In this document: piece after piece, positions 32,331-33,963 of the stretch | Numbering within the stretch: position 1 is the stretch's first letter | Layout of the letters: the number at the start of each line of letters is the position of its first letter | Assembly (NCBI GenBank): GCA_003220495.1 | Contig: QHSP01000106.1 | Location: 1 to 33,963 of the forward strand | DNA from: Candidatus Rokuibacteriota bacterium | Lineage (GTDB): Bacteria > Methylomirabilota > Methylomirabilia > Rokubacteriales > CSP1-6 | Direction: 5' to 3' | DNA: 33,963 nt | The notes under the pieces: model-generated | The model's input: only the letters and a program-made list of their open reading frames with translations | What the model was told of the DNA's origin: nothing | Database searches by the model: none | Made by a program: the position numbers and the translations under genes

Positions 32331-32452
32331 GCGGCCGATCAAAACCGTCCCAGATGCGAGGCGCCGACGAGCGACGACTGAGGCGTATGCCGCATACGCC
32401 GCAGGGAGGAGCGAGGAGGCAACGAAGCAGATGGGCGGTTTTCATCGGCCGC
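32331..32452. repeat. 122-bp imperfect palindromic element between rpsJ and rplC
   Basis: The outer arms are GCGGCCGATCAAAACCG (32331-32347) and CGGTTTTCATCGGCCGC (32436-32452), which pair at 16 of 17 positions. The centre is a perfect 9-bp repeat, GGCGTATGC-C-GCATACGCC (32382-32400). Further matches in between (CCCAGATGC against GCAGATGGG with a 2-nt mismatch) show one long palindrome centred near 32391. The element ends 1 nt before the rpsJ stop codon. It has no reading frame of its own. Its form suggests a dispersed intergenic repeat of REP or MITE type; only one copy is in this window. The rest of the gap (32286-32330) holds the rplC ribosome binding region. Confidence 0.75.
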
Positions 32453-32453
32453 T

Positions 32454-32774
32454 CTACAGCTTGATCTCGACGTCGACGCCGGCCGGGAGATCGAGCTTCA
32501 TCAATGAGTCGACCGTTTGAGGAGTCGGGTCGACGATGTCCAGGAGGCGCTTGTGCGTTCGCATCTCGAACTGCTCGCGCGATGTCTTGTCGACGTGCGG
32601 GCTCCGCAGCACCGTCCAGCGGTTGATGATCGTGGGCAGCAAGACCGGACCGGACACGCGCGCGCCGGTGCGGCGCACCGTCTCCACGATCTCCTTGACC
32701 GACCGATCGAGCAACTGGTGATCGTATGCCTTCAGGCGAATCCGAATTTTCTGATCAGCGGCCAAGGTTGCCAT
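32454..32774 (-). CDS. rpsJ: Ribosomal protein uS10
   Basis: A protein of 106 residues ([51 protein letters not shown]). It is part of the 30S head and also the NusE antitermination factor. Its start lies 3 nt after the tuf stop, and its stop codon is next to the palindromic element. Confidence 0.99.
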
Positions 32775-32777
32775 GCG

Positions 32778-33963
<1,186 letters not shown>

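Follow-up and report, generated by a model that had tools for sequence, protein, structure and literature searches.

The palindrome between rpsJ and rplC in a Rokubacteria genome is very probably an old copy of a dispersed IS5-type repeat

Non-autonomous transposable repeats (MITEs) have been described in bacteria and archaea, among them RUP, NEMIS, ERIC and Nezha (PMC3733652, PMC2229807) and those of Haloquadratum (PMC3119063). They span 70–300 bp, have no coding capacity, fold strongly and lie beside genes; they have terminal inverted repeats in common with an insertion sequence, and they duplicate their target. In the IS5 family, the target measures 4 bp and is of the kind C(A/T)A(G/A) or YTAR (PMC11677980). 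Here, we describe a repeat family of Rokubacteria that is like these MITEs in each of these respects, and whose partner transposase passes the NCBIfam IS5 model. A 122-nt palindrome between the ribosomal protein genes rpsJ and rplC is, very probably, an old and no longer intact copy of this non-autonomous IS5-type repeat.

The window analysed here, 33,963 nucleotides of Candidatus Rokuibacteriota bacterium, is a whole contig and ends inside tuf (32778–33963); tuf is often duplicated, which would explain a contig break within it. On the minus strand, the genes run tuf (truncated by the contig end), rpsJ (ribosomal protein S10, 32454–32774, TAG stop at 32454–32456), rplC (ribosomal protein L3, 31608–32285), rplD, rplW and rplB. 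Between the rpsJ stop (32454) and the rplC ATG (32285) lies a gap of 168 bp, as compared to 3 bp between tuf and rpsJ. The palindrome (32331–32452, minus strand) fills 122 bp of this gap, beginning 1 nt past the rpsJ TAG and stopping 45 nt short of the rplC ATG. An earlier note on this DNA had seen correctly that it takes up most of the gap; its placement inside the S10 operon, on the other hand, needs a qualifier. Because tuf sits directly upstream of rpsJ, we take the gap to be the junction of a tuf–rpsJ unit with an rplC–rplD–rplW–rplB unit, as presumed from the str and S10 clusters, and not the middle of a tight operon.

The palindrome itself is real. Its outer arms (32331–32350 and 32433–32452) are 90% complementary over 20 bp. 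Read on the mRNA (minus) strand, the 5′ arm is GCGGCCGATGAAAACCGCCC (32433–32452), the diverged equivalent of the intact terminal repeat described below, and the 3′ arm is GGACGGTTTTGATCGGCCGC (32331–32350), as judged from arm complementarity and site comparison. Two motifs conserved across the family, CATCTGCTTCGTTG (32420–32433, first on the mRNA strand) and CGCCTCGCATCTGG (32350–32363), lie opposite one another in the stem, and an asymmetric internal loop is conserved as well. At the centre (32382–32400) lies the hairpin GGCGTATG-CCG-CATACGCC, a perfect 8-bp stem with a 3-nt loop. The 122 nt fold into a single hairpin of −72 kcal/mol, against a mean of −43.0 kcal/mol (sd 3.4) for 200 dinucleotide shuffles, none of which does as well (z −8.43). 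The reverse complement, which is the transcript strand, adopts the same fold, more weakly.

Only one copy had been noticed, and within the window that holds; in the genome as a whole, the family occupies about 10 places. A BLAST search with the 122 bp finds two strong copies there, 83% (E 7e-23) and 82% (E 5e-21) identical, plus weaker ones; with a covariance model trained on six copies, the count is six full-length places and four partial ones. By covariance model, the family is present in 56 of 99 sampled genomes, with at least 35 matches in the richest. Arms of the window-copy type (GATGAAAAC..GTTTTGATC) also occur at non-orthologous, unrelated sites in other genomes. An exact 22-nt core appears in 112 stretches among 84,980 species genomes, every one of them Rokubacteria or NC10. 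The consensus repeat was absent from the plasmid and phage records searched, and the exact core from the viral contigs searched. As far as tested, then, the family is confined to Methylomirabilota (Rokubacteria, NC10). At some places the repeat forms tandem or clustered arrays (L113, L121, L132, L112, G025:C98), and at one (L010/L074, G000:C101:9459–9526) an internally deleted copy of about 68 bp has kept its outer arms. A search of the open-licence literature found no published repeats or insertion sequences in Rokubacteria, and the family is new and unnamed.

Intact family members are 148 bp long, carry terminal inverted repeats CAGGCTGCTGAAAAA and lie between two copies of a 4-bp YTAG target. 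The intact copies in G016, for instance, measure 152 bp when both YTAG sites are counted, the duplicated target adding 4 bp to the 148, and have the ends CAGGCTGCTGAAAAA and TTTTTCAGCAGCCTG. When the joined flanks of five copies were searched in two sister species, both had contiguous empty sites with a single CTAG for L115 and L123, and one of them had such a site for L116 as well. A search by the end sequence of the repeat also returned insertion sequences that end alike. Seven IS5-family insertion sequences from the same bacterial family have YTAGCAGG ends (in G001, G003, G006, G010, G011 and G027). The one at L189 in G003, from the genus of the window, is 1,346 bp long and encodes a 373-aa IS5-family transposase (270 bits against the NCBIfam model NF033581, cut-off 140; Pfam DUF772 and DDE_Tnp_1). 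These partner insertion sequences share the terminal ends CAGGCTGCTGAAAAA with the repeat, and duplicate CTAG or TTAG. The insertion sequences at L214 and L216 are flanked on either side by TTAG in direct repeat, which shows a target duplication and not a longer inverted repeat.

Because of its terminal repeats, duplicated CTAG, empty sites and IS5-family insertion sequences with the same ends, we regard the family as an IS5-type MITE. Its dispersed copies have no coding capacity, and its target duplication agrees with that of the partner in length and sequence. Together with the copies in the genome and its relatives, these features bear out the mobile, non-coding, dispersed repeat that the earlier note had suggested. 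At the window copy itself, neither a YTAGCAGG end nor a target duplication can be recognised; with its outer ends lost, this copy is probably immobile. The matching transposase, which we infer moves the repeat in trans, is found in 5 of 57 genomes, and G006 has a diverged version. The genome of the window and the repeat-richest genomes (G016, G026) yielded no close copy, which may reflect real loss or a draft-assembly gap.

The position of the repeat at stop codons is explained by its target CTAG, which is rare in these genomes and common at TAG stops. In 400 kb of two relatives, CTAG is seen 111 times versus 1,114 expected from base composition, a depletion of about 10-fold. In 60 of the 77 copies keeping an end, this TAG or TAA serves a neighbouring gene as its in-frame stop, versus 55 of 178 (31%) other YTAR sites (Fisher P 4.5e-12) and 35 of 90 sites for CTAG alone (P 4e-7); these P values should be taken as indicative, since reading frames were assigned from GC bias at codon positions and the copies lack full independence. 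A stop codon is likewise the target of the insertion sequences in L187, L189 and L202. Between co-directional genes, CATCTGCTTCGTTG comes first on the mRNA strand in 43 cases versus 13 (P 7e-5). An orientation bias of this kind is unexpected from CTAG, a symmetric palindromic target.

The rpsJ–rplC gap was also compared among relatives. Family members occupy it in 10 genomes from 6 genera (G000, G001, G002, G004, G007, G019, G030, G066, G067, G072), and probably, by coordinates, in G023 too. In the remaining genomes, the gap is short or contains some other hairpin, in certain cases one with a GTAC-type centre and perhaps distantly related to the family; many genera are without the element. In five genomes (G011, G012, G032, G014 and G028; L036, L043, L046, L054 and L057), a different hairpin lies in the gap, with an GTACAACCnCGTAC centre and arms like CGATnAAAACC, possibly a distant branch of the family, and another class of gap hairpin, with GGGGGGCGAAGCCCCCC, is seen in further genera (G029, G021 and G024; L044, L047 and L053). 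In the sister species G002 and G004 (L037, L045), the inversion takes in the element and about 20 nt of flank, and the left arm is duplicated, the pattern expected from a template switch at a palindrome. The centre is deleted in G001 and replaced in G007; in G006, only GCGGCCGC is left at the gap. The latter led us to consider whether the rpsJ copy had duplicated a 6-bp CGGCCG target. Slippage deletion between palindromic CGGCCG ends fits equally, and we do not claim such a duplication.

Among six rpsJ-site copies, 95% of pair cells hold standard pairs and 15 of 39 pairs have changed on both sides, a result reached by none of 500 shuffles. The hairpin may have been kept by selection or by arm-to-arm correction, or each copy may already have been a hairpin on arrival, and these data do not discriminate among the three. 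In a tree of 39 copies, there is no grouping by site: the rpsJ copies fall in separate branches, as do the copies that follow methylmalonyl-CoA mutase in three genera. This implies that the same junctions were hit repeatedly, or that homogenisation takes place among the copies of a genome. We also considered, and rejected, an rpsJ-site hairpin inherited from the common ancestor of all six genera, given the lack of grouping by site, though copy-to-copy conversion could hide such a history. G000, G002 and G004 share the 122 bp without a single difference, even though the flanking 250–300 bp are only 82–91% identical (9–18% diverged); in other copies common to the genus, divergence is similar to that of the flanks or higher. 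At 10–16% divergence, the neutral probability of 122 unchanged bases is 3e-6 to 6e-10. This identity is unexplained; constraint, horizontal exchange and the merging of similar paths in metagenome assembly are all possible causes.

Several of these observations could also be read as signs of a site-specific cis-regulatory RNA of the rplC-led operon, a ribosomal-protein-bound leader or attenuator for which the dispersed copies would be secondary. Recurrent occupation of the gap, the two-sided changes and the identity in three species are in line with this idea, but many copies lie at unrelated genes, the losses, inversions and altered centres at the gap itself and the many genera without an element there do not suit a regulator, the rpsJ-site copies are not together in the tree, and Rfam gives no match above gathering score (best 16.4 bits versus 50). 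We consider it improbable. The absence of the element in G006 also argues that it is not essential. The earlier proposal of a useful RNA structure keeps part of its ground: co-varying arms and the shared junction speak for it, and the loss in G006, the inversions in G002 and G004 and the capacity of arm-to-arm correction to keep the arms alike speak against it.

Slightly less probable still is a bidirectional transcription terminator, with a GC stem between A and T tracts. Intact copies do have AAAAAGG...CCTTTTT around their GC-rich stem, and 31 of 87 copies lie between convergent genes. At the window copy, however, the tract is just TTTTG and no terminator-like site is present (GC stem then at least 5 T in 8 bases); since many copies, moreover, lie between genes of one operon, termination is unlikely, and at this gap it would cost rplC and the following genes their upstream promoter. 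The GTAG at the rpsJ edge, for its part, recalls REP elements moved by RAYT-type tyrosine transposases, the GTAG class of which often supplies a TAG stop (PMC3733652). A REP is nonetheless scarcely credible here: intact copies measure 148 bp and not 20–40 bp, the terminal inverted repeats, 4-bp target duplication and IS5-type (DDE-type) ends are foreign to REP/RAYT elements, and the empty sites also disfavour it.

Returning to the IS5-type MITE, a transposase supplied in trans would have moved the family. Its target occurs seldom in coding DNA and often at TAG stops, and an insertion there rebuilds the stop by target duplication, leaving the gene unharmed. The rpsJ copy would have arisen by insertion at or beside the rpsJ stop and then lost its outer ends. 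An intercistronic hairpin would presumably be tolerated at this position, and it may stabilise, process or partly uncouple the tuf–rpsJ and rplC messages while transcription continues through it. Other MITEs (PMC3733652) suggest, by analogy, that the most likely effect would be protection or processing of the upstream message.

It is conceivable, if rather unlikely, that this stop-codon-seeking family has been co-opted further, as an intercistronic RNA device. Copies at the same junctions in different genera, oriented in a preferred way, would then govern how stable upstream messages are or how they are processed, and constraint on the rpsJ copy would be strong enough to have kept it identical in three species, its inversion notwithstanding. 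Such junctions, with recurrent or retained copies, would be rpsJ–rplC, methylmalonyl-CoA mutase to branched-chain aminotransferase, an oligopeptide permease pair, a cytochrome c pair and glutamine synthetase. More generally, the family illustrates how mobile repeats can spread through a compact genome and leave its genes intact, and its presence at the same junctions in several genera, ribosomal ones included, makes it a test case for distinguishing hot spots, selection and homogenisation.

How, then, does this family compare with those already described? It differs from the known MITEs in its unrelated sequence, in its IS5-type YTAG target and in providing a stop codon in most intact copies, and from IS5 elements proper in being without a transposase, so that only the ends are in common. 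The ends of GTAG-tagged REPs likewise often give flanking genes their TAG stop, a precedent for repeat-supplied stops, whereas REPs are tied to RAYT transposases and lack a comparable target duplication. YPAL/RU-2 and ERIC/RU-1 of enterobacteria resemble the family as long palindromic intergenic repeats (127–168 bp) transcribed with their neighbours, but they have other ends, and YPAL duplications range from 3 to 26 bp (PMC2229807). The Rokubacteria repeat is thus a known kind of element, with an unusually clear placement at stop codons.
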